Shown here piece by piece: positions 5,320-18,514 of a DNA stretch of 28,492 nucleotides; positions within the stretch are counted from its first letter, which is position 1; the number at the start of each line of letters is the position of its first letter. Made by a program: the position numbers and the translations under genes. The notes beneath the pieces were generated by a model. That model was not told where the DNA came from and ran no database searches. It saw only the letters and a program-made list of their open reading frames with translations. The DNA comes from a virus. The stretch lies in the IMG/VR virus record IMGVR_UViG_3300039037_000066, positions 1 to 28,492 of that record. One strand, 5' to 3'.

Positions 5320-7440
5320 ATGGGTTTGAGGACAATAGAAGAATATCTTTTAGATAAATTAAATAACATACCAGGGAGACCTGCCTTCGGTGTCAAGCTA
5401 TTAAAAGAATGTCTTGGTGTCGAAGAACATATCCCTGAGTTAGCTTACACAGCATATGATATTCTCACTACCCATGTACTAAGGGGTAAGTCTGGGGATC
5501 TCCCTGGGTCAGCTAAGTTAACTCAGGTGTCTACTAAGATTGGCTCTACAGTATTCTCTAAGCTATTCGATAGTGATCCAGAGTGGAGAGATGTTGTAAG
5601 ACTAGGAGATGTATTCATAGAAGCTTTCTTTAGATGTGGCTACATCAGTCTCCACTACCCTAAGGTTAGGAACTCTTCTTACATTGTAAAGATTACTGAC
5701 AAGTGGTTAGAGGAACTGTGTGAAGTCTCTAATGACTATGAGAGGTATCGTCTTACAGGTACTGTCTTTGAGAAACCAAAAGAGATTGATACCTTAATGC
5801 AAGAGTATCATAGGGAAGGTGTGTTACCTACAAGGTACCCTATAATAAAGAACTGGGACTACACTTACTCTCACTTGTTTCAGAAGATCAAGAAGCTACC
5901 TTGGTTAAGAGCTGCTAATAAACTACAACAAGTTGGTTGGCAGATTAACAAGAGAGTATATGAAGCTGTTATGGACTCTGAGATTACAGAGACTTCTACA
6001 GATGAACTAGAGATTGAAAGAATAGAATCAAAGAAGATGAAGCTAGGGTACGTTAAGGCTAAAGCTACAGCTCTACTTGATAAAACTTTCTACTCTCTAG
6101 TTGACTTTGATTACCGTGGTCGTATCTACTACAGAGAAACTATGTTTAACTTCCAAGCATCAGATTATGAACGAGGGTTGTTCTTGTTTGATGAAGCTAG
6201 GTTAGTTACTGAGAAAGGTAAACGTTGGTTGTATATCCATGCAGCTAACTCCTTCAACATGTCTTACACTAAAGATAAGATACCAGGATGGTGTACTACA
6301 GATTACTCTAAGTATCTTGAGGGTCAAGGACTTAATGATATCTCTGTTGATAAGATGACTCTCAAAGATAGAGAGTTATGGACAGAGAATAACCTTGAGC
6401 TAATCCAAGAAGTCTCTAGTATGAACAAGCTTGTAAACTGTGAGAAACCTGTGGCATTCCTAGCAGTATGTCATGAGATCGTAGAGTACAACACCTTCAA
6501 AGAGTTTGGTATTGACTACCACTCTTCATTACCTATACCTATCGATGGAAGTAACAATGGATGGCAACACTTAGGAGCTATCTCTAAAGATACTAATACT
6601 GGTGAGCTAGTAGGGTTAGTACCTGTGGATATCCAACAAGACTTCTATGTTAAGACTGCAAAGAAACTTATTGAGATAACACACGATGAACATAGATTAG
6701 ATATCCTCAACAAGATGCCGATGAAGAAGATACGTAAAGGTATTTCTAAACGTGGTAGTATGACTAGAGCATACTCTGCGGGGGCACAGAAGATCGCTGA
6801 GAACATGTTCTTGGATCTACGTAAAGAAGGGTACGATGTAGAATATGGAGTTACTGAGAAGGACTGTATGGGATTCTCAAGAGACCTTATCAAAGCTATC
6901 GAAGCTGTATGTCCAGGACCTCTACAGACTATGAAGTTCTTACAGAAGATAGCTGTATCATCCCTTGAACTAGAACAGAATAGTATCCAATGGGTAACAC
7001 CATCAGGGTTCTTTGTTAACTATGAGAACTTCTATACGAGTACTGAGAAAGTTTCAGGAACTATCCTAGGTGTAGGTAAACGTGATAGGGTTAACCATGT
7101 AGGACTTAAGGTATCTGATAAGCCTAACATTAGAGGGTTCGTATCTGGTATCTCCCCTAACTATGTCCACTCCCTTGATGGTAGTCACATGGCAATAGTA
7201 ATAGCAAACTGGGGTGGTCATTTTGGTGCAGTACATGATAGCTTTAGTACACATCCTGATGATGTAGATGAGTTACTACATTTAACTAAGGAGGTATTTA
7301 TTGAGATGTATGATTACAATAATTACTTTAGTAAGATTAAAGGATCATTCATGACTAAGTTCTTTGAAGATACTGAAGAACCAACGTTAGGTATCTTAGA
7401 TATAAATAAAGTGAGGGAGTCTAACTACTTCTTTGCATAG
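5320..7440 (+). CDS. Single-subunit DNA-directed RNA polymerase (T7/N4 RNAP II type)
   Basis: A 706-aa polymerase with the full set of single-subunit motifs: DYRGR at 264-268, motif A DGSNNGWQH from D409, motif B K477-R478 with MTRAYS ending at S486, PNYVHSLDGSH at 613-623, motif C VHDSF with D640, and a C-terminal FFA like the FAFA foot of T7. It is about 180 aa shorter than the T7 enzyme (883 aa), all lost before DYRGR, so the N-terminal promoter-melting domain is reduced. Its length approximates the two N4 RNAP II subunits joined. Motif B differs from T7 (K for R627, S for G640). AATAGGAGAG precedes the ATG. It probably transcribes middle or late phage genes. Sitting in the replication block, it must itself be transcribed by another polymerase. 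Confidence 0.93.
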   Translation: MGLRTIEEYLLDKLNNIPGRPAFGVKLLKECLGVEEHIPELAYTAYDILTTHVLRGKSGDLPGSAKLTQVSTKIGSTVFSKLFDSDPEWRDVVRLGDVFIEAFFRCGYISLHYPKVRNSSYIVKITDKWLEELCEVSNDYERYRLTGTVFEKPKEIDTLMQEYHREGVLPTRYPIIKNWDYTYSHLFQKIKKLPWLRAANKLQQVGWQINKRVYEAVMDSEITETSTDELEIERIESKKMKLGYVKAKATALLDKTFYSLVDFDYRGRIYYRETMFNFQASDYERGLFLFDEARLVTEKGKRWLYIHAANSFNMSYTKDKIPGWCTTDYSKYLEGQGLNDISVDKMTLKDRELWTENNLELIQEVSSMNKLVNCEKPVAFLAVCHEIVEYNTFKEFGIDYHSSLPIPIDGSNNGWQHLGAISKDTNTGELVGLVPVDIQQDFYVKTAKKLIEITHDEHRLDILNKMPMKKIRKGISKRGSMTRAYSAGAQKIAENMFLDLRKEGYDVEYGVTEKDCMGFSRDLIKAIEAVCPGPLQTMKFLQKIAVSSLELEQNSIQWVTPSGFFVNYENFYTSTEKVSGTILGVGKRDRVNHVGLKVSDKPNIRGFVSGISPNYVHSLDGSHMAIVIANWGGHFGAVHDSFSTHPDDVDELLHLTKEVFIEMYDYNNYFSKIKGSFMTKFFEDTEEPTLGILDINKVRESNYFFA

Positions 7441-7823: not shown

Positions 7824-8010
7824 GAAGAAAGACTACAACATCAACACACTACGAGGTGTAACTACCTTCACAGATGAAGAGGTATGTGAGACCCTAGGTA
7901 TCCCTATGGAATACGCTAACACACCTAAGATGATTGATGCTCAACTAGAGCGTGATGTATCTCCTGACTTACACGAAGAGATCAAACGTAGCCTAGCTAA
8001 GTACTTATAA
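7810..8010 (+). CDS. Small acidic/basic protein of unknown function (66 aa)
   Basis: The last gene of the + strand block. ATG 7810 (MEDNKKKDYNI) is preferred because AAGGA at 7795-7799 is only 1 base from the other ATG at 7801. The protein includes TFTDEEVCETLGIPMEY and ends EEIKRSLAKYL, with no recognised domain or membrane segment. The TDEEVCETLGIP stretch looks helix-rich. The stop TAA runs directly into the A tract of the convergent terminator. It overlaps the end of the HNH gene. Function unknown. Confidence 0.6.
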   Translation: MEDNKKKDYNINTLRGVTTFTDEEVCETLGIPMEYANTPKMIDAQLERDVSPDLHEEIKRSLAKYL

Positions 8011-8070
8011 AAAAAAAGACCCCCATCGGAATCCTATTAAGGAAACCTTTGGGGGTTTAATTTTTTTCTA
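8009..8070. terminator. Bidirectional intrinsic terminator between convergent blocks
   Basis: GACCCCC at 8018-8024 pairs with GGGGGTT at 8051-8057, with a shorter inner pairing (TCC with GGA) in the loop. On the + strand the stem is followed by TTTAATTTTTTT. Read from the - strand it is followed by a run of about ten T (the A tract at 8008-8017). The same hairpin can therefore stop both the replication transcript ending at 8010 and the late transcript ending at 8093. Confidence 0.9.
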
Positions 8071-8092: not shown

Positions 8093-11000
8093 TTAGTGAG
8101 AGTAGTACTGGTATATTCTATTATTAGGGTCAAGTAGAATCTTAGCTAACTCTTTCTTATCCCTCTCAACAATACTAATCAGTTTATTCAAACGACTACT
8201 TGTATTCAACTCATAAAAGATACTCTGAATTAGTTTCTCGACTTGCTCTGGTTTAGCTGTAGTAGAACCTACAGGAATCCCTGAGTTTCTGATTAACTTA
8301 GAAGCTACACCTGCTTGCCACTTAAGACCTTCATCCTTTGTATCAAACTTAATATCAGTTAAATTCTTAAGCTTACTACCAAGTAGGGATACACCACTTT
8401 CCTTATCTAAGAAAGCAGCTACCATAGGGAAGTCTGAAAGATTGATAGTTCCATCAGGGTTCCTAGGTGCCTCTCTAAGTTTCTTCTTGAAGTTCTTATT
8501 AGAAGTTATCTGTGCTTCTTTAGCAGCTTGTAAGTAGCTCCACTCTAATGATATCTTAGCCCAGTTAGTATTCACTTCTTCTAATCCAGAGTGGAAGGAA
8601 GCAATGTCAAACTTAAAGGCATCATATATCTGGTGAACATAAGGGGTACCTGAAGAATCGAATGACATCTTCTTCCAAGAGTTACCTGTTACAGACTTAA
8701 CTACAGTAGCAGCATCAACAGCCTGTACTGGTCCAGGGATAACACCACCCCATGCCCAACCACCTACATCTACACTAGGTACATTTGTAGTAGGGTCAAC
8801 CCTAACTCTGGCTGCAGCAGATGTTGGTTTCTTACCGAACCTATCTACACCTACAGTTCTACCATCTACTTTAAAGCTACCTACTCTCTCTGTCATAGAG
8901 GGGTCTTCTACTAGGCCACCAAAGAATAACTTGTTACCTACAGGACCTTCAAGTACTAGTGGTTCATCATAGAGAGCATTAGCAAACGCCACACTTCTCA
9001 TTAACTTACGTGACTCAATACCTTTAGAACCCATCAGTTGTTCTACAGCTGGTAAGTATAAACGCATGAGACTATCTTGAAGGTTCTCAAGTTTCTGAGG
9101 GTTAGTTACAAAATACTCATAAGCTTCTGTAAATGCTACATCACTTGGGTTACTTGAGGTCTTACCTTTCTCAGCTAAGAACTGCATAGCTCCTACTATA
9201 TCTGGTTTAAAACTCTCAATCTCTTTACCATAACCAAAGGTCATTACCATTGCTTTATTAAGTGTACGGTAACCGAATAAACCTTTAGCGATAATACGGA
9301 TGTTAGCTAAAGAAGCTGACTCTTGACGGCCTTGTAGCTTCTCGTTGAGAGTTGCATTGAGATTACTCTCAAGGATATCTCTCATATCCATATCATCTTC
9401 CACAGCGTACACCTGGTCCTTACTTCTGTAAGCACCAACCATTAAAGCTATGTGTTCATCACCCATCATAACACCATTGATAGCAGGACCATTGGTCTTA
9501 CCATCTATAACAGGGTTAATGTAAGAGCGATACACAGGGTTGTCTGATCTCATAGCTTTCTGGAACTTAGAGAAATCAATAAGTCCATCGATAAACGAGA
9601 GACCATCTTCTCCTTTAGAACGGATAGCTTCAATCAACTCCTGATCAACATTAGGGTCTAGTTGCATCTGCTTAACTTGTGGGAAGCTAGGGTCAGTCAT
9701 AGGGATACCAGCAGCAATAGCTTCTGATATAACTTCTACTTCTTCATCTGTCATTGTGTTATCTAACACTTGAGATAATCTATCACCCCAAGCCTCATAC
9801 TTAGAGGCACCAGCTAATAGTTGTTGCTTACGTACAGAAGGAATGAACTGATCGATACTTGGGAACTTACCATTAGGGTCTCTAGTAGGGGAGATACCTA
9901 ACACTAGAGCATACGCTTGTAACGCAGTCTCATAGAACCTACCACCTTTCTTAATAGTCGTAGGCTTAACACTACCAGTAACAAAACGTACAGCCTTGGA
10001 GGTCGTAGGATTGAAGTGAGTTTGGTTAGGTGTTAAACGACCATTGAAAGATTGGAAGAAGTAAGTTAAGTAGTTAGCCTGCTTACGCTCTTGAGATATA
10101 CCATAAACATGTTGGGAGATAACTCTCTTTAGTTTACCGATCTCTTGGAAAGCATTGTAGTTAGAACCTTCGGGTTCATTGTTTTGCTTCGCTCTATACT
10201 CTGTTAGTTTATCTAAACCGAAGTTGTTGATAGTAGCAAAGGTATCTAGTAAAGGGTCTCTACCGTAGTTCTGAGGGTTATGATTAAGAGCAGGTAGGAT
10301 AGTAGATAGAAGTATCTTAAGTCTTTGTGGTAGTACCTTGTGGGCTACCTTACCTAAGTTCTCTCTAGCTTCTTCTTGTTCTTTAGATGTTACAGAACCC
10401 TTAGGTTTCTTACCTGATACATTCTTAGTGTACTGACTAATCTCACCTACAGATTTACCACGAGTGGGTGCTAGTTGAGTCCTAATAATCTTCTTAGGGA
10501 ACATTAGTTTACGTGTGGCTACTGCTTCAGGTGACAGTATCTGCTCTACAAAAGAAGGAGATGGGTTGAACACATATACATCTCTACCACCACTATCTTT
10601 TATCTTCTGTAACATGTTGTCAGGCATAGCCGCAGCGAACATCTCTTTACCAAACACACCTAGTACTGCTGCATCCTCAGGTGATAGGTCAAAGGTCTGA
10701 TCAGTAGGTAATCCTTTCTTCATATTATTAATACGTTGGAACTCTCTACCAATCTCTTGACCTAGCATAGTAGCATCATCACTACGTCGGATAGTTTCTA
10801 CTTGCTGTGAGACCTCCTCAGAAGCTCCCTGTTCAACGATCTCGCTTGGACCCTTAGGTAGTTCCACCCCACTTAAGATATCCTCTTCAGAGCGTCCTGC
10901 TAAACGATTAGCGAAGTAGTTTTCAGTTACCGCACCAATCACTTGACCGAACTCTGGGTTAATCTGTAGTGCAGAAGCAGAACCTTGTTGTAGGATATTG

Positions 11001-11587
11001 TAGTTAGCAGCACCTAGGGCTACTGCAATCTTACCAAAGTTACTTCCTTTGGCTACTGATGAACGTTCACCAGAGATTACAGCTTCAGCTACACGATTCA
11101 TACGTGACTCTACCCCACCATCCCCAGATATATTATCCTTCTCTACCTGAAACAAATTCCAAGTAGGTTGCTGATCAGTAAGGTTTTGAGTATCTAACTG
11201 TAATGGTTCTATACGACTACGCTCAAAGGTCTGGTCAACTTCTAGACCTCTCTCTAACCTTTGTTGTTCAGTCATATAAGGGTCTTCAGCTACACGCTGC
11301 ATCATCCTTTGTCGTTGATTCTCAACACGCATAGAAGCCTCTTGGTTAGCACGTTGCATTTCATCACGCTTTAACCTAGCTGCCTCTGCTCTAGCTGCTT
11401 GCTCTTGGTCAGGAGTAGGTTGTTCCAACTCCATCCCATCGAACATACCCTCAACTTGCTGTAGGAATGCCCCACCTACTGGTAGGGTATCCTCTTGTAT
11501 TTGCTCCACAGGAGTCTTGAGGATTCTATCAGGTACCCCCTCTTGAGGGGCAGGTACATTTCCTGATATGTTAACTCTTTTAGACAT
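8093..11587 (-). CDS. Candidate virion-associated single-subunit RNA polymerase (N4 vRNAP-like, 1164 aa)
   Basis: A large protein with single-subunit RNA polymerase motifs in order. SFNGR at 513-517, with FNP at 525-527, matches T7 DWRGR plus MFNPQ. VIDGKTNGP has the motif A Asp at D695. RTLNKAMVMTFGYG at 774-787 reproduces T7 R627, K631, M635, Y639 and G640 at identical spacing. GVIPGPVQAVD at 948-958 matches T7 GIAPNFVHSQD. HQIYDAF has the motif C Asp at D989. Residues 1-400 are Gln/Glu/Arg-rich and unlike T7. AAGGAATAATCT precedes the start. It lies last in the ejection-protein block, the place of the N4 virion RNA polymerase, so I infer that it is packaged and injected to start early transcription. 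A degenerate inactive homologue is less likely because all catalytic residues are kept. Confidence 0.72.
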   Translation of the reverse strand: MSKRVNISGNVPAPQEGVPDRILKTPVEQIQEDTLPVGGAFLQQVEGMFDGMELEQPTPDQEQAARAEAARLKRDEMQRANQEASMRVENQRQRMMQRVAEDPYMTEQQRLERGLEVDQTFERSRIEPLQLDTQNLTDQQPTWNLFQVEKDNISGDGGVESRMNRVAEAVISGERSSVAKGSNFGKIAVALGAANYNILQQGSASALQINPEFGQVIGAVTENYFANRLAGRSEEDILSGVELPKGPSEIVEQGASEEVSQQVETIRRSDDATMLGQEIGREFQRINNMKKGLPTDQTFDLSPEDAAVLGVFGKEMFAAAMPDNMLQKIKDSGGRDVYVFNPSPSFVEQILSPEAVATRKLMFPKKIIRTQLAPTRGKSVGEISQYTKNVSGKKPKGSVTSKEQEEARENLGKVAHKVLPQRLKILLSTILPALNHNPQNYGRDPLLDTFATINNFGLDKLTEYRAKQNNEPEGSNYNAFQEIGKLKRVISQHVYGISQERKQANYLTYFFQSFNGRLTPNQTHFNPTTSKAVRFVTGSVKPTTIKKGGRFYETALQAYALVLGISPTRDPNGKFPSIDQFIPSVRKQQLLAGASKYEAWGDRLSQVLDNTMTDEEVEVISEAIAAGIPMTDPSFPQVKQMQLDPNVDQELIEAIRSKGEDGLSFIDGLIDFSKFQKAMRSDNPVYRSYINPVIDGKTNGPAINGVMMGDEHIALMVGAYRSKDQVYAVEDDMDMRDILESNLNATLNEKLQGRQESASLANIRIIAKGLFGYRTLNKAMVMTFGYGKEIESFKPDIVGAMQFLAEKGKTSSNPSDVAFTEAYEYFVTNPQKLENLQDSLMRLYLPAVEQLMGSKGIESRKLMRSVAFANALYDEPLVLEGPVGNKLFFGGLVEDPSMTERVGSFKVDGRTVGVDRFGKKPTSAAARVRVDPTTNVPSVDVGGWAWGGVIPGPVQAVDAATVVKSVTGNSWKKMSFDSSGTPYVHQIYDAFKFDIASFHSGLEEVNTNWAKISLEWSYLQAAKEAQITSNKNFKKKLREAPRNPDGTINLSDFPMVAAFLDKESGVSLLGSKLKNLTDIKFDTKDEGLKWQAGVASKLIRNSGIPVGSTTAKPEQVEKLIQSIFYELNTSSRLNKLISIVERDKKELAKILLDPNNRIYQYYSH

Positions 11588-11597
11588 AGATTATTCC

Positions 11598-14500
11598 TTA
11601 TTCAAACGTCCATTTAATAGGGTGATAAAACGGACCTAGTGTTGCACGAGCTATATCTTTCCCTGCTCCTGGTGTATCACCTGATATGGCACCTGCTCCT
11701 GCACCTGCAAGTAATTCTAACTTACCTAGTGCTGGAGATTCACCGAGGGTAGTATTAAACAACCACTCTCCAGGACCATCTGAGCGTTGCTCATAGATAG
11801 GGAAGAACTGATTGAATACACGCTCAGGTGTACCCATTAATCCAGTAGCAAGTAAACCACGTTGTACAAACTCTGCTTCATCTAAGTACGGAGAACTCTC
11901 ACCAAATTTGATAAGGTCTTTTAGATACTGTGAGGCGAAGCCCATCATTACCATACCCATTACCATAGAGAATGTCTGATACTTCATAGCAGGACTACCA
12001 CGCTTAACGTACTCACCCCATAACCTAGGGATATGGTTAGCAGTAAATGTAGCCATGAAACCTTGGAACTGCATGAACAAAGCCATACGAGGATCTTGGT
12101 ACATCAAAGGACGGTTAGCTGATTGTGGCATAGCTACAGCTTCATTAATAAAGTTGAAGACAGCTTCTCTAATGATAGGAGCTACCTTACCTTCAGGCCC
12201 TTCCATTCTTAGTAATTCATCTAAACGGAAATCTCCAGAGTCATTACGAGTATCGTAGATACTTTCTTGTAAGTCTACTAGGAACTCTTTGTTTGTAGGG
12301 ATACCTAGGTTTCTTAACTTCTCTTCTGCTTCACGCCTAGCATTAGACCCATCATACTTATTATCTAATAGTATAGATAAGTTATCCATGATGTAGTCAC
12401 CTGCCATAGCCGCACGTGCTGCACGAGTAAAGTTAGTCCAACCTTGTAGACCTGTCCACTTAAAGTACTTAGTTAGGAAACGGTTATGCCAGTCATGTGT
12501 TTCAGTAACACCTGTTACACTAGCAGCACCTACTTCCCACTCATAGTAACCAGCTTGTTGAAGAAGACTAGAACCTAAAGTATTTCTTGTATCTAATCCA
12601 CCCTTAAACTTAACACCAGCAGGTACAGCACTACGAGGTAATCTACCAATCTCTAACATACCTTCATAAAGTGTACTAGCTAACTCCTTCCCCATCTTAT
12701 TAAGAAGCCCAGGTCTATCTTTAGTTCCAAAGATTTGATCTTTAGTAAGTCCACGGGTAGTTAACATAACTTCAATAAGAGAAGAGACTGTAGCTAAAGG
12801 TAGAGAAGTTACTGTTACAAATAACATAAAGTTCTTTTGGATAGCCTCAAGAGTTTTACCAGTATCTGATGTAGCACGTTTGTAGTTACCTGACTCAGCA
12901 GCTAAGTAGTTCTTCATTTGATAGGCTACCTTATCTACTTCTTCTTTAGGAACTCCTTCTGCTTCCATCTGGTCTAAGTAATGTGCAATGACTTCACCGT
13001 TAGTGCCTACGTATTTCTGGGTAGCTGTGTAACGAGCAGAGGATTTAGCAGCTTGAGATACGTTAGCAAATAAATCTTGCTCCATAAACTCAGAGAACTC
13101 TTTACGCTCTGCTAAGTTGAAGGTACGTCTCTTATGAGACCCAGGAGCGAACTCACCCTTAGTGATATCATAAGCTTCCTCAAGGGTACCTGAGTGTCCA
13201 TTGATAATCTCTTCAGTTAGTTCTGTTGCTTGTTCTTCAGTTAGTTTACCACCACCAGGTAAGTCTACCTTCATCAACTCCTTAATAAATCTATGTTTAT
13301 TTTTATAGACAGCTTTCTTATTGAGTGTCTTATAGCGGAGGAGGTAGTTGTCTAGCTTACCTAACTCTGGGTTAAACTGTTTCTGGTCATCATACATATT
13401 GTTAGAGAGTTTCTCTAGGTCTTCTACTAGCTGCTTAACTACTTCTACTTTAGATTGTTTTAAAGCAGGTACTGTTTTCTCATTACCAAATCTATCTTTA
13501 TAAGTAGAGTCGATAGTAAGTTTCTCAGGATCAAAAGCATCTTTAAATCCATTAGTAGCTTTCTCTACTTGGTTATAGAACTCATCACTGATATTCATCT
13601 CAGCACCATTGAATACATGGTTACCTTCATTGAGCTTAATGAAGTAATCGTTAGCTGTATATCTTAGAGTGTTCTTGTACTTAGTCATCTGGTGATGTTT
13701 AAAGTTCTCGAAGTGAGCACCACCATATACCTTCTGTAAACTACCATCAAACATAGAAGCTAATCTACGTGCTGCTTTAGATTTTCTTTGTAGTTCATGG
13801 TTGAAGATAAAGCGAGTAGACCCTTTCAATAATCTATAACCAGAAGTCATTACATCAATAGCTGAGTCTTTAAAACTTTTTTCTTTCTTAGAAGACTCAT
13901 GCTGCTCAGATCGAGAATCTAAAGAGTTGAAAGGTTCTTGTGCTGATTTTGCTTCTTTAACAAAGTCATCAATCGTAGGTGCAACTTCACGAGTACCTAT
14001 AATCTCCCCAGTAGTAGTATCAACTTCATTAATAATACGGACATCTTCACGTGCCCACTCAGTCTGTTCAGCTACATGGTTAGCATTCTCTCTTTCTAAA
14101 CCGTAGACTGCATTAGCCCATTGACCTGCATCCCAAGCAGCACCAGCAGTAGAGAAAGCCCCACCTAATGCACCACCTGATACGAAGCCATGTATAGCTC
14201 TATCCTGTACGTCCTTCCAATCGATAACCTGGTCACTACCTAAGTCAGCTGCGATAGCCGCAATAGATTCCTGGGTAGCTTCAGTGATACCTTCACCTGT
14301 TGCACCAAGACCTGCTCGCTTAAGAGCATCTATAGTAATCTTCTTAGCAGCAAGTTGTTCTTCAACAACCAGTGCAGAATCTTTAAGTAAGTCTACGAAC
14401 TGCGCTTTAGTAGAAGTAGATAAGAAGTTAGTAGCTTGTTGCTTAGTCATCCCTTGGGAATCCATAACTTTCTTAGTAGCTTCTTCAAAGAGTTTCTTAG

Positions 14501-15572
14501 TACCTACTCTAGATTTTATAGCTAGTCCGATAATCTTAAGACCGAAGATATCCAAAGCAACTTGGAGAGCACCAGCACCCATAGCATAAGCCGCTGATCT
14601 TTCTCCTTCTCCTGCTTCTTTAATTTGATCTCCCATTTCATTCCACACTTGACCAGTGTAGATAGAGACAGGGGCAAGAAGAGAAGCACCACCAGTCATA
14701 GGGATAGTAGCTCCAGCTCCAGCAGCGATAGCCAGGTACGGGATAGACATAGTTGCTAGGTTACCAAGATACTGAGCAGCATCCCCGAACCCATTGATGT
14801 CTTCATAGTCAGTTAAGATATTACCTTCATCACCTATACGAGCTTGTGCTCTATAAGAACCAGCAGTACCTTCACCTTCTAAGTAATCAACACCAGTCTT
14901 CTCACCAATCATTTCTAGTGTACCATATAGACCATCCTTAACACCTTCCATAGCGATATCCCAGGAAGCACCTAGCTGTCCTTTAGCCATTCCAGTATCT
15001 GTATCTATATTGTCGAATTCAAATAACGCACCTTCATCAGTAAAGTATTTACTCTGCTGACCAGGTAGTGTGCGTTTAACCTTATATCCTAAAACATTTT
15101 CACCAATGTCTTTATCTAGTTGTTCTTTAGCTAAATCAAACTCATCAATAGCGTAGTTATCATTAGACTTCATAGCCTCACGGTATAGGTATGACTCTGT
15201 AAGAGCAGCACCTTCATCGTACTGCCCTACAGGAGATAAGATACCAGAAGAAGCTAGAGCTTCAGAGAAGGAACGACCCTCCTCATTCACCAAGTCTACC
15301 ATAGTACGAGTACCAGTAGCATCTACTTCTCCTAGGTTAACAAGGTTAGTGAAGCCAAGGTCATTAGCAAGTTGAACGACTTGATCTGTAGTTAGGTCTC
15401 CACCTACCATACCTTCCTTACCTAACGTGTCTACCTCAGGAGCGTTCACTCCCCTAAGGCGATAGCCTTGACCCTTAGAATCATACAAGGTATCAGCATC
15501 GTAGAACGAATAATCTGTATCACCTAGACGATTAGGGTTTAGCTGTTCAGCCAAGTTTTCAATTGAAGCCAT
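11598..15572 (-). CDS. Large internal virion/ejection protein with N-terminal SNase-like domain (1324 aa)
   Basis: A 1324-aa protein preceded by AAGGAGAGGTCAA. Residues 20-115 resemble staphylococcal nuclease: YDADT (D25, D27), RLRGVNAPE (R38, N43, E46) and GTRTM (R89), followed by RSFSEALASSGIL. The catalytic R, E, R set is kept, while the Ca-binding Asp of the DtPE motif is Asn43. Hydrophobic segments follow near 270-310 (TMSIPYLAIAAGAGATIP and beyond), in the FMLFVTVTSLPLATVSSLIE region and in the MVMGMVMMGFASQYL region, as expected for a protein that inserts into the host envelope. The middle is long, charged and helical. It is the counterpart by size and position of the T7 gp15/gp16 ejection proteins. 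The gene lies between the GH108 protein and the candidate virion polymerase and is probably co-packaged with them. Confidence 0.7.
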   Translation of the reverse strand: MASIENLAEQLNPNRLGDTDYSFYDADTLYDSKGQGYRLRGVNAPEVDTLGKEGMVGGDLTTDQVVQLANDLGFTNLVNLGEVDATGTRTMVDLVNEEGRSFSEALASSGILSPVGQYDEGAALTESYLYREAMKSNDNYAIDEFDLAKEQLDKDIGENVLGYKVKRTLPGQQSKYFTDEGALFEFDNIDTDTGMAKGQLGASWDIAMEGVKDGLYGTLEMIGEKTGVDYLEGEGTAGSYRAQARIGDEGNILTDYEDINGFGDAAQYLGNLATMSIPYLAIAAGAGATIPMTGGASLLAPVSIYTGQVWNEMGDQIKEAGEGERSAAYAMGAGALQVALDIFGLKIIGLAIKSRVGTKKLFEEATKKVMDSQGMTKQQATNFLSTSTKAQFVDLLKDSALVVEEQLAAKKITIDALKRAGLGATGEGITEATQESIAAIAADLGSDQVIDWKDVQDRAIHGFVSGGALGGAFSTAGAAWDAGQWANAVYGLERENANHVAEQTEWAREDVRIINEVDTTTGEIIGTREVAPTIDDFVKEAKSAQEPFNSLDSRSEQHESSKKEKSFKDSAIDVMTSGYRLLKGSTRFIFNHELQRKSKAARRLASMFDGSLQKVYGGAHFENFKHHQMTKYKNTLRYTANDYFIKLNEGNHVFNGAEMNISDEFYNQVEKATNGFKDAFDPEKLTIDSTYKDRFGNEKTVPALKQSKVEVVKQLVEDLEKLSNNMYDDQKQFNPELGKLDNYLLRYKTLNKKAVYKNKHRFIKELMKVDLPGGGKLTEEQATELTEEIINGHSGTLEEAYDITKGEFAPGSHKRRTFNLAERKEFSEFMEQDLFANVSQAAKSSARYTATQKYVGTNGEVIAHYLDQMEAEGVPKEEVDKVAYQMKNYLAAESGNYKRATSDTGKTLEAIQKNFMLFVTVTSLPLATVSSLIEVMLTTRGLTKDQIFGTKDRPGLLNKMGKELASTLYEGMLEIGRLPRSAVPAGVKFKGGLDTRNTLGSSLLQQAGYYEWEVGAASVTGVTETHDWHNRFLTKYFKWTGLQGWTNFTRAARAAMAGDYIMDNLSILLDNKYDGSNARREAEEKLRNLGIPTNKEFLVDLQESIYDTRNDSGDFRLDELLRMEGPEGKVAPIIREAVFNFINEAVAMPQSANRPLMYQDPRMALFMQFQGFMATFTANHIPRLWGEYVKRGSPAMKYQTFSMVMGMVMMGFASQYLKDLIKFGESSPYLDEAEFVQRGLLATGLMGTPERVFNQFFPIYEQRSDGPGEWLFNTTLGESPALGKLELLAGAGAGAISGDTPGAGKDIARATLGPFYHPIKWTFE

Positions 15573-15583
15573 TTGACCTCTCC

Positions 15584-18514
15584 TTATTTATATTTAGATT
15601 CCATGTATGCGAAGAACGGAGTTATCTCTAGGTCTTCATCAGAAGCCATAGATTGATACATACGTTTCTGTTCATCACTCATGCTACTCCAATCCTTAAG
15701 AGCTTGAGAGTAAGCTTGTTTAACTGCTACAGTAGAAGGTACCTTAGAATCCTTAGATTTCTCAATGATAGACCTACGTAAGCTATTAACCTTATCTGGA
15801 CGTACATAAGACTTAATACCATCTTCATCTGTACCAGTTGACATAAGATCTCTAGTACCTGTTTCCATTAAGATTTGCTGTTGTTCTAGATATGGTCTAA
15901 ACTCAGTTAAGTTAACTTTAGTTTTACCACCATTCATACGTTGGTCTTTCCATGAAGCTAAGTAAGAACGATATGCATTCTCTCTCATAGCAGCAACGCT
16001 TGCATCCAAAGGATTCATGTTATTACTTCTAGCCCACTGTACGAAATCTCTAGCTGCAGCATTAGGTGTTAACGGTGCACTGATCTTCTTATCATCTTTA
16101 CCAATAGTACCATACATGTCATACACTTCTTTCAGTGAATCAGTAGTAGATCTATGTGCTCTATCATCTAAGTCAACATAAGCTTTAGATTTAGGGTCAT
16201 GTAGCGCAGGATCAAACTCCTGTATCTTTGTAGATGTCATATCAACACGAGTACCATTCTTATCAATGAAGTAAGTACCTTTACCAATCTTCACCTTCTG
16301 TACTTTAACATTAGTCCACTTAGGCGCTAATGAAGTACCCTGGTTAACTCTCACGAACTTAGACTCACCAGTAGGCTCGAAAGCTCCACCTTTAAGTTTA
16401 AGAAGAGAGATATCGTTGTTATCCATAGCTTCTTTTACTGAAGCAGGTTTGTACTTACCATCTGTAATAAGCTTATTTTTCATAGTTTGCTTATCACCGA
16501 TACTCTTTAAGTATACCTTAGATGAGAACTGAAGAGAATCATTAGAGTCATAACCTAGTAGACGAGAGCCAAGATAAAGACCAGCTAGTTTACCTACCTG
16601 TTGCTTATCAATGAAATCTCCTAGACCCCACTCTTTAAGGAACCCTGTAACATCTTGCCAAGCTGAACGTTTATCTTCGTCTTTAACTTGTACATTAGTA
16701 TTATTAAATGAATATTCTAATTGAGCTTCAATCTCAGATTCATTTAACTCATCATCATTCCACCAAGGACTGATAGGTTTAGGTGCTTTAGGTTTAGACT
16801 TACTACCTTCTACTTTTACCTCTTCAAGAATTGTAGCATTCTCATCACTTCCTTTAACAGTGGTAGATTTAGGACCGCCTGTAGTAGAGAACATCTCTGG
16901 TGCACCATCAACCTTAGTAATTGGGTTATTAAGATCAGCTTTAATAAACTCCTGGTTATCAATATCTTTTTGAGATTGAGTTATATCAGTAAACCCTTCA
17001 GGAATATCACTAATATCTACGTTAGTAGGTACACCCTTTGGTATAGGGTTAGTTACAAAGTTATTAGTTATAAGTGGAGGTATAGCTTCTTTTGGATTAA
17101 TTCCTATTACTTCTAAGTTTGGAGTTTGCTCTTCATCTTTAGTAAAGTGCCAAGGGATTTCGTCTTCATTACCTAAAGGTCGAGGAATATCACTACCATA
17201 ATCAACAGGCTCACCAGAAGATAAGGGGTTATACTCTGGAACTTCTAATGTTCTAGTTTCTTTTCTGGTTAATCTATCACCATATAGAGCTTCATCACCA
17301 AAACGATCCATAGGATTATATAACTTACCATTATCTATAAGATATGATGAGCGATCCATAGAATCACCAACAACACCAGCTGCTAAAGCAGGTGCTCCAC
17401 CATATTTAAGCTTATCCATAATATCAAGTTCAACCATATCTTTAACAAACATATCATAGTCTACGTTAGATGGGCCACTACTCTTTGTTATAATACCACC
17501 TTTTGCTTTATACTTAGGTAAGTAACTATTAGACCTATTCTTCCAACCTTTCAAGAATTTACTTTGAGAAGGATTGTTAGCAACTAACTGATCGTAGTAA
17601 TCATTACGAGCAGAAACAATAGCAGTTCTATCTGTGTTCTTTAAAGCAGCTAAAGTCTTAGGACCTATAATACCATCAGCTTTAACACCAGCAGCTTTCT
17701 GTAGAATCTTAGCAACACCTCTAGGACTATGGTTAGTATACATGTCGAATATTAAATCACGGTTCTCTTCAGGGAACTTGTCTATACCAAAGTGATCATA
17801 GTATTTATTATAGAAGTCTTTAGCTTGGTCACGAGTAAGGTTATATACATCTTCATCACCACCAAACATGTTGTAAGTGCTTTGAGTAATACCGTAGTTA
17901 GTCTTACCACCCTTATCATCAGGGTCGTTAACCTTACCACCTTCATGGCCTAAAGTCTTATTAATGATATCCATACGAGTTGTATTTTCTGGGATATCCT
18001 GAGGAGGCATAGCTTGCTCCTGAGGTACACTCATAGCTTCTCTAGTTGGTTGAGGTACACTCTGTTTAATTGGAGGCACACTTCTTTCTGGGAGAGGTAG
18101 TTGCTGTCTAACCATCTCTGGTTCTTCTTGACCACCACCAAAGTAACCTATTATCTGTTCAACAATATTTGAAATACCACTAAGGTCTAATTTCCCACCT
18201 TCAGCTTTGTACATTGGCGGAATAAGCCCACCTTGAGCGGCTTGTACGATACGGCCATGGTTGTTCATAGCTTCAATCTCAGGACCATACATCTCCACTG
18301 CTTGAGGGTTAACTACAAATTCACCCTCAGATAACCAGGCAGGTATGTTATCCACACCACGGGGTTCTCCTGGGTGTTCCTGAGGATTCCCATAAGTGAC
18401 ATCCCCTTCAACTGGCTGAGGTATACTCTGCATAGGAGGTACATGGAACTCGTAAGACTCCGTAGTAGCCCCATCTGCTGCAGTCTTACGGGTATATTTT
18501 TTAATATTATCCAT
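15584..18514 (-). CDS. Large virion protein with GH108 lysozyme domain (976 aa)
   Basis: A 976-aa protein. Residues 58-85 carry AWLSEGEFVVNPQAVEMYG, a motif recurrent in phage tape-measure and internal proteins. Residues 180-330 form a GH108-type muramidase: LGHEGG with catalytic Glu191, TNYGIT at 205-210, FDMYTNHSPRGVAKILQKA at 256-274, and then the peptidoglycan-binding piece DGIIGPKTLAAL at 280-291. The remaining roughly 640 residues are hydrophilic and unrecognised. YKAEGG (102-107) and YKAKGG (335-340) flank the enzyme. The virion lysozyme should open the cell wall during DNA injection, as the transglycosylase of T7 gp16 does. It is separate from the lysis endolysin at 26633-26980. AAGGAAACAAGCT precedes the ATG. 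Confidence 0.8.
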   Translation of the reverse strand: MDNIKKYTRKTAADGATTESYEFHVPPMQSIPQPVEGDVTYGNPQEHPGEPRGVDNIPAWLSEGEFVVNPQAVEMYGPEIEAMNNHGRIVQAAQGGLIPPMYKAEGGKLDLSGISNIVEQIIGYFGGGQEEPEMVRQQLPLPERSVPPIKQSVPQPTREAMSVPQEQAMPPQDIPENTTRMDIINKTLGHEGGKVNDPDDKGGKTNYGITQSTYNMFGGDEDVYNLTRDQAKDFYNKYYDHFGIDKFPEENRDLIFDMYTNHSPRGVAKILQKAAGVKADGIIGPKTLAALKNTDRTAIVSARNDYYDQLVANNPSQSKFLKGWKNRSNSYLPKYKAKGGIITKSSGPSNVDYDMFVKDMVELDIMDKLKYGGAPALAAGVVGDSMDRSSYLIDNGKLYNPMDRFGDEALYGDRLTRKETRTLEVPEYNPLSSGEPVDYGSDIPRPLGNEDEIPWHFTKDEEQTPNLEVIGINPKEAIPPLITNNFVTNPIPKGVPTNVDISDIPEGFTDITQSQKDIDNQEFIKADLNNPITKVDGAPEMFSTTGGPKSTTVKGSDENATILEEVKVEGSKSKPKAPKPISPWWNDDELNESEIEAQLEYSFNNTNVQVKDEDKRSAWQDVTGFLKEWGLGDFIDKQQVGKLAGLYLGSRLLGYDSNDSLQFSSKVYLKSIGDKQTMKNKLITDGKYKPASVKEAMDNNDISLLKLKGGAFEPTGESKFVRVNQGTSLAPKWTNVKVQKVKIGKGTYFIDKNGTRVDMTSTKIQEFDPALHDPKSKAYVDLDDRAHRSTTDSLKEVYDMYGTIGKDDKKISAPLTPNAAARDFVQWARSNNMNPLDASVAAMRENAYRSYLASWKDQRMNGGKTKVNLTEFRPYLEQQQILMETGTRDLMSTGTDEDGIKSYVRPDKVNSLRRSIIEKSKDSKVPSTVAVKQAYSQALKDWSSMSDEQKRMYQSMASDEDLEITPFFAYMESKYK

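Follow-up and report, generated by a model that had tools for sequence, protein, structure and literature searches.

A compact relative of the N4 virion RNA polymerase predicted at the end of an ejection-protein operon in marine phages

The giant virion RNA polymerase (vRNAP) of phage N4 has been regarded as the hallmark of a single family, the Schitoviridae (PMC7650795, PMC10654107), and the N4-type vRNAPs reported so far measure 2,842-3,820 aa (PMC10654107). Since Poorviridae and StenR_269 have been reported with N4-like or presumed vRNAPs, N4-type enzymes outside the Schitoviridae are not wholly new. Here we analyse a 28.5-kb IMG/VR virus record of a marine phage (IMGVR_UViG_3300039037_000066; 'the window' denotes this whole stretch of 28,492 nt), in which open reading frame (ORF) 8093-11587 on the minus strand encodes a protein of 1164 aa without cysteine. 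We propose that this protein is quite probably a compact, stand-alone vRNAP of the N4 type that is packaged, ejected and used to transcribe the early strand from hairpin promoters. In the searchable literature we found no compact, stand-alone vRNAP described, and the compact form together with its two-promoter context is what is new. An earlier reading of the DNA letters alone (the sequence-only reading) had suspected that such an enzyme would be undescribed or poorly annotated, and this is borne out: the relative in Roseobacter phage CRP-7 is labelled 'hypothetical protein', and a survey of IMG/VR with N4-vRNAP profiles discarded hits shorter than 2,500 aa (PMC10654107).

The sequence-only reading had based its assignment on short motifs, and all of the strings that it quoted are present in the ORF in polymerase order: SFNGR (G516 R517), FNP (525-527), DGKTNGP (D695-P701), R774-x3-K778-x3-M782-T783-x2-Y786-G787, GVIPGPVQAVD and YDAF (D989). 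We aligned 47 distinct complete homologues, seeded with members of 27-34% identity, and found R517, K531, R534, D695, G696, K697, T698, G700, K778, Y786, G787, D958, Y988 and D989 in all 47, so that the T7/N4 catalytic set (R517, K531, R534, D695, K778, Y786 and D989) is without variation. On the minus strand of the window these residues fall into the GR of the TxxGR motif (10037..10042; T7 R425), motif A (9488..9505; DGVTNG in N4, D537 in T7), motif B (9227..9268; T7 R627/K631/Y639), in which R774 is Arg in 40 homologues and Lys in seven, and motif C with Y988-D989 (8621..8626; T7 D812); a C-terminal QYxxH (8096..8110) is likewise invariant at Q1160 and H1164. The region that had been likened to T7 H784 fared less well, as the GVIPGPVQAVD string is there but contains no histidine, the invariant residue being D958. 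With GR, A, B and C motifs conserved and in order, the protein is placed by its sequence in the single-subunit (T7-like) RNA polymerase (RNAP) superfamily. Beyond the GR region, K531 and R534 (9986..9997) align with K437 and R440 of the N4 mini-vRNAP, which touch the +1 nucleoside triphosphate (PMC4496689). This K-x2-R pair occurs in all 47 homologues and in 13 Schitoviridae vRNAPs, which share 'NPQxxKxxR' at this place and in most cases the motif A 'DGxTNG', and the N4-specific pair, which the sequence-only reading had not noted, is the better diagnostic.

Profile and fold comparisons agree with the motifs. Using hmmscan against PHROG, the window protein matched PHROG 2206 'virion RNA polymerase' (E=6.9e-5), and five of 12 family members matched PHROG 414 'RNA polymerase' (best E=3e-7). 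When the family profile was aligned with the RNAP domains of the 13 Schitoviridae vRNAPs using hhalign, it scored 94.9 (P=1.5e-9, 731 columns), compared with at most 21.5 for 20 column-shuffled control profiles, while the N- and C-terminal domains of the same vRNAPs, split according to the N4 domain, gave no match (P 0.81 and 0.54). The match to the T7-like RNAPs of the same phages was far weaker (P=0.017), which places the 1164-aa protein, at the level of sequence, nearer to the RNAP domain of N4-type vRNAPs than to T7-like RNAP. The relation to RNAPs is visible by profile-profile and fold comparison only: the window protein has no Pfam match, neither a single-sequence PDB search nor a profile run against PDB sequences gave a significant match, and a tblastn search of 50,697 phage records, with the window protein and with two further members as queries, returned nothing significant. 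With the E limit relaxed to 10 in 2.3 Gb of phage genomes, the sole tblastn matches were two phCDa records annotated 'virion RNA polymerase' (E=0.07). Structure prediction followed by Foldseek, the check proposed in the sequence-only reading, put single-subunit RNAPs at the top with moderate model confidence: the AlphaFold model (predicted local distance difference test, pLDDT, 71; predicted template-modelling score, pTM, 0.63) had as top matches solely T7, mitochondrial and N4 RNAPs at E 1e-8 to 2e-11, with T7 at 2e-11 and the N4 mini-vRNAP at 9e-10, the latter having the top query-length TM-score (0.39). The predicted fold class, that of a right-hand polymerase, is secure, whereas with TM-scores as modest as these the fine geometry is not. 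Taken together, profile matches, invariant catalytic residues and predicted fold support the claim that the structural block encodes a second single-subunit RNA polymerase. A chance match of the motifs was rejected on conservation, shuffled-profile controls and fold.

The place of the gene in the genome also resembles that of N4 gp50. In the window, the plus strand carries the genes for DNA polymerase, exonuclease, primase-helicase, a T7-like RNA polymerase and endonuclease VII, followed by a minus-strand block of which ORF 8093-11587 is the final gene; the portal, major capsid protein and terminase genes fall outside. The ORF begins 10 nt past the stop of a gene for a 1324-aa putative ejection protein (11598..15572, minus strand), shares an operon with the ejection-protein genes, and is convergent with the replication genes, a bidirectional terminator read off the sequence lying at the junction (8009..8068; A-run, ACCCCC...GGGGGT, T-run). 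The remark that the gene stands last in the ejection block and convergent with the replication genes, as the N4 vRNAP gene does, therefore agrees with the map, gp50 occupying the same position. As in N4, a second phage RNAP is encoded in the same genome, here a 706-aa T7-like single-subunit enzyme (5320..7440, plus strand; PF00940 1.3e-55, phrog_414 2e-102). The protein differs from N4 gp50, whose mini-vRNAP core spans residues 998-2103 (PDB 2PO4/3C3L), in being a compact chain without the N-terminal membrane domain and the autoinhibitory C-terminal domain. It was rightly noted as smaller than known vRNAPs: 1164 aa, and 1117-1385 aa among complete family members, against 3,264-3,644 aa in the 13 Schitoviridae vRNAPs, about one third of the size, so that the compact family lacks the giant chain characteristic of N4-type vRNAPs. 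Furthermore, N4 has the two-gene RNAP1/RNAP2, whereas these phages have a long single-chain T7-like RNAP, and with a compact vRNAP, this T7-like enzyme and CRP-7 as closest isolate they fall outside the Schitoviridae, a family marked by a giant vRNAP among its N4-like hallmark genes. T7 RNA polymerase and the Autographiviridae-type RNAPs (PF00940, phrog_414) share fold and catalytic residues with the window protein, which differs from them in its lack of cysteine, its place among ejection proteins and its weak profile match. The virion RNAPs of phiKZ-like jumbo phages are multisubunit beta/beta'-type enzymes, in contrast to the single-subunit T7/N4-type enzyme of the window. A likeness to these phages lies in the division of labour, in which a packaged phage polymerase serves the early genes and is paired with a second phage polymerase (PMC10612078).

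Because annotated phages yielded no protein close to the window protein in sequence, we used the better-conserved T7-like RNAP as query to reach related phages in IMG/VR. All loci extending far enough beyond this gene contained an adjoining minus-strand ORF of 1,100-1,300 aa, and these ORFs fell into two clusters. The profile of the window-type cluster gathers 66 IMG/VR loci and two contigs of metagenome-assembled genomes (MAGs); the T7-like RNAP gene adjoins in convergent orientation in 68/68 loci, and a member of the 1324-aa family stands immediately upstream of the polymerase gene wherever the locus is long enough to show it. Cysteine is absent from the 1164-aa protein and from its neighbours of 1324, 976, 254 and 246 aa. 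In one protein alone this is weak evidence (P ~0.04), because the other virion proteins of the window are also cysteine-poor (~0.28%). Stronger evidence, though the sequences are related, comes from the 53 complete homologues, which contain three cysteines in all; the 13 N4-type vRNAPs contain none and the T7-like RNAPs of the same phages 8-14. The operon, the N4-like gene position, the lack of cysteine and the closer N4 profile match thus indirectly support packaging.

The second cluster includes a protein of a cultured phage. By synteny the closest isolate is Roseobacter phage CRP-7 (MK613349), which is not a schitovirus, and its gp33 (1235 aa, no cysteine) lies beside the T7-like RNAP gene; the CRP-7 paper reports a T7-like RNAP alone, and gp33 is not described there as an RNA polymerase (PMC6918029). 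Identity to the window protein is very low: BLASTP of gp33 against it found no match, and a 16-member profile was needed, the CRP-7-type and window-type profiles then aligning over 725 columns (P=1.8e-17). In the CRP-7 cluster the catalytic aspartates D678 and D979 and the motif-B YG774-775 are invariant, and a model of an 83%-identical relative of gp33 had solely single-subunit RNAPs as top matches, at lower confidence. Profile and model together indicate that gp33 is a diverged relative of the window protein. CRP-7 also carries a repeated intergenic motif, TAGTCC..TATTAAAAGG, a candidate promoter (2017-2044, 7138-7165 and 14762-14791).

In one clade of relatives we found early-strand hairpins that resemble N4 promoters. 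The element, GAG-C-CACRC-loop-GYGTG-T-CTC-TTT (candidate promoter sequence GAGCCACACNNNGTGTGTCTCTTT), occurs in relatives G002, G004, G005, G006 and G009, at two to four copies in each of the contigs behind loci L006, L011, L015, L025 and L066. It has a 5-bp stem and a loop of 2-4 nt, compared with a 5-7-bp stem and 3-nt loop in the N4 type, followed by TCTCTTT in most copies. All copies are intergenic and on the early strand only; their sites include the region 5' of the primase/T7-like RNAP operon and regions where early and late genes diverge. Across 17 copies, 98.5% of cells preserve the pairing, three pairs are compensatory, and 13 cells are doubly changed versus 3.6+-2.4 after shuffling. 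The same structural scan of the N4 early region recovered the hairpins GAAGC-TCC-GCTTC-TTTT and GCTGC-TCC-GCAGC-TTTT, both in keeping with the N4 promoter design as published (PMC4496689). A different, T7-type promoter-like motif, CTCGCTAGTCCCTATAGGA, lies on both strands, the late strand included, in three of the hairpin contigs and is a candidate promoter of the T7-like RNAP; sites are at L090:11722(+) and 6979(-), L095:2929(-), L092:670(+), L098:9503(-), L099:3474(-), L096:17005(-) and L097:3503(+). Another clade of the family has a repeated hairpin TCCC-GAA-GGGA with a compensatory change (L178:190-215; contig G016 near 56120 and 58673), possibly that clade's own hairpin promoter.

The computation shows family membership, an invariant catalytic set, a single-subunit RNAP fold, conserved gene order, lack of cysteine and, in relatives, covarying early-strand hairpins and T7-type motifs on both strands; packaging, injection, catalytic activity and the pairing of enzyme and promoter are inferred. 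The compact polymerase would be made late, its gene being the last of the ejection-protein operon; it would be packaged in the capsid, travel through the tail in threaded form alongside the other ejection proteins, which like it are free of cysteine, and refold in the host. There it may start from hairpin promoters on the entering DNA to transcribe the early strand and with it the primase-T7-like RNAP operon, after which the T7-like RNAP would take over with its own promoters and transcribe early and late genes. We thus propose a cascade from an early, packaged polymerase to a late, T7-like one, in which we infer the assignment of the hairpin and of the T7-type motif to the two enzymes.

Several observations weigh against this reading. 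The hairpin is confined to one clade of relatives and was not found in 15 other large contigs, and repeated-hairpin searches of the window, CRP-7 and several other clades gave no equivalent of GAGCCAC...GTGTCTC; the window is without its early region, hence no promoter of this phage was seen. Confidence in the model of the window protein is moderate, with low pLDDT at residues 508-528 around the GR motif. The extended hairpin stem (GAG...CTC outside, then TTT) also resembles a weak intrinsic terminator, and in three contigs it sits shortly downstream of a T7-type promoter, so that the element by itself might be a terminator, an RNA-processing site or a signal for the T7-like RNAP rather than a vRNAP promoter. 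We regard this as a substantial possibility, though the less probable one. Against these alternatives, conservation of the stem bases CCAC...GTGT and of the C.T mismatch extends to the sequence itself, beyond structure; several copies stand in divergent early/late regions with no early-strand gene close upstream to terminate; the hairpin is on the early strand only, the T7-type motif on both; and the architecture is like that of N4 promoters. Finally, some CRP-7-type members have Arg in place of the motif-B Lys and an unclear GR motif, as might be expected of a catalytically dead, RNAP-derived ejection or structural protein that retained the fold as an injection-channel scaffold. Such a protein would hardly keep a complete catalytic set invariant in 47 window-type sequences, nor does it account for a candidate dedicated promoter class in the same clade, and we consider it very unlikely.

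Neither the fold nor the active site depends on where the polymerase works, and the same protein could be a late-expressed second polymerase that is not packaged and acts inside the producing cell, for example in late or replication-priming transcription. This is improbable given that the protein lacks cysteine, as do the adjacent lysozyme-bearing ejection protein and the N4-type vRNAPs, that its gene closes the ejection operon like gp50, and that, in profile comparison, it matches the packaged N4 enzyme best. The blank results in Pfam and PDB would be explained by an ordinary internal virion protein in which polymerase motifs had arisen by chance; the concordance of profile-profile, PHROG, conservation and fold evidence effectively refutes this reading and leaves it a negligible probability.

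How a compact packaged polymerase might relate to the giant N4 enzyme is a more speculative matter. A 107-aa hydrophobic stretch of the 1324-aa neighbour resembles the N4 vRNAP N-terminal domain (hhalign P=8e-5), a weak match which hints that the giant N4 protein joins genes that stand apart here. The guess that the neighbour has both gp50 terminal domains failed, the C-terminal domain being unmatched (P=0.15), and because only the N-terminal stretch matches, a full fission or fusion of the gp50 domains finds only weak backing in sequence comparison. The broader idea that these phages need host RNA polymerase at no stage of transcription and rely on two single-subunit enzymes, a compact packaged one of the N4 type with hairpin promoters on the early strand and a T7-like one with promoters on both strands, the compact one representing the state before gp50 fused ejection domains to a separate polymerase gene, is tentative and on balance doubtful. 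In Pseudomonas phage YMC17/07/R4900a (Kochitakasuvirus, KPP25 group), a 1,600-aa structural protein shares homology with the C-terminal portion of the 1324-aa protein.

A compact relative in a widespread marine podovirus group would mean that packaged single-subunit polymerases are broader than thought, and that compact vRNAPs have been missed through length filters and 'hypothetical protein' labels. The family may offer a natural mini-vRNAP with candidate hairpin promoters, open to study without accessory domains, a route to asking whether N4's enzyme arose by fusion, and perhaps a new compact polymerase for single-stranded templates; CRP-7 is cultured, hence a test system exists.

Further features were recorded in the window and its relatives. 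The 976-aa putative ejection protein (15584..18514, minus strand) combines GH108 lysozyme and peptidoglycan-binding domains (PF05838 3e-20, PF09374 1e-12). At 434-451, immediately 5' of the DNA polymerase gene, the window has a 7-bp hairpin, AATGTAC-TACG-GTACATT, followed by TTAAA. The two MAG contigs (DNHN01000098.1 and CALGTL010000115.1) carry the viral locus under the labels Bacteroidetes and Dehalococcoidia, and are probably viral contigs binned by mistake. Contigs G030 (L175-L177), G016 (L178-L180) and G020 (L184-L186) have identical stretches at both ends, suggesting that they are near-complete genomes of ~57-59 kb with direct terminal repeats.

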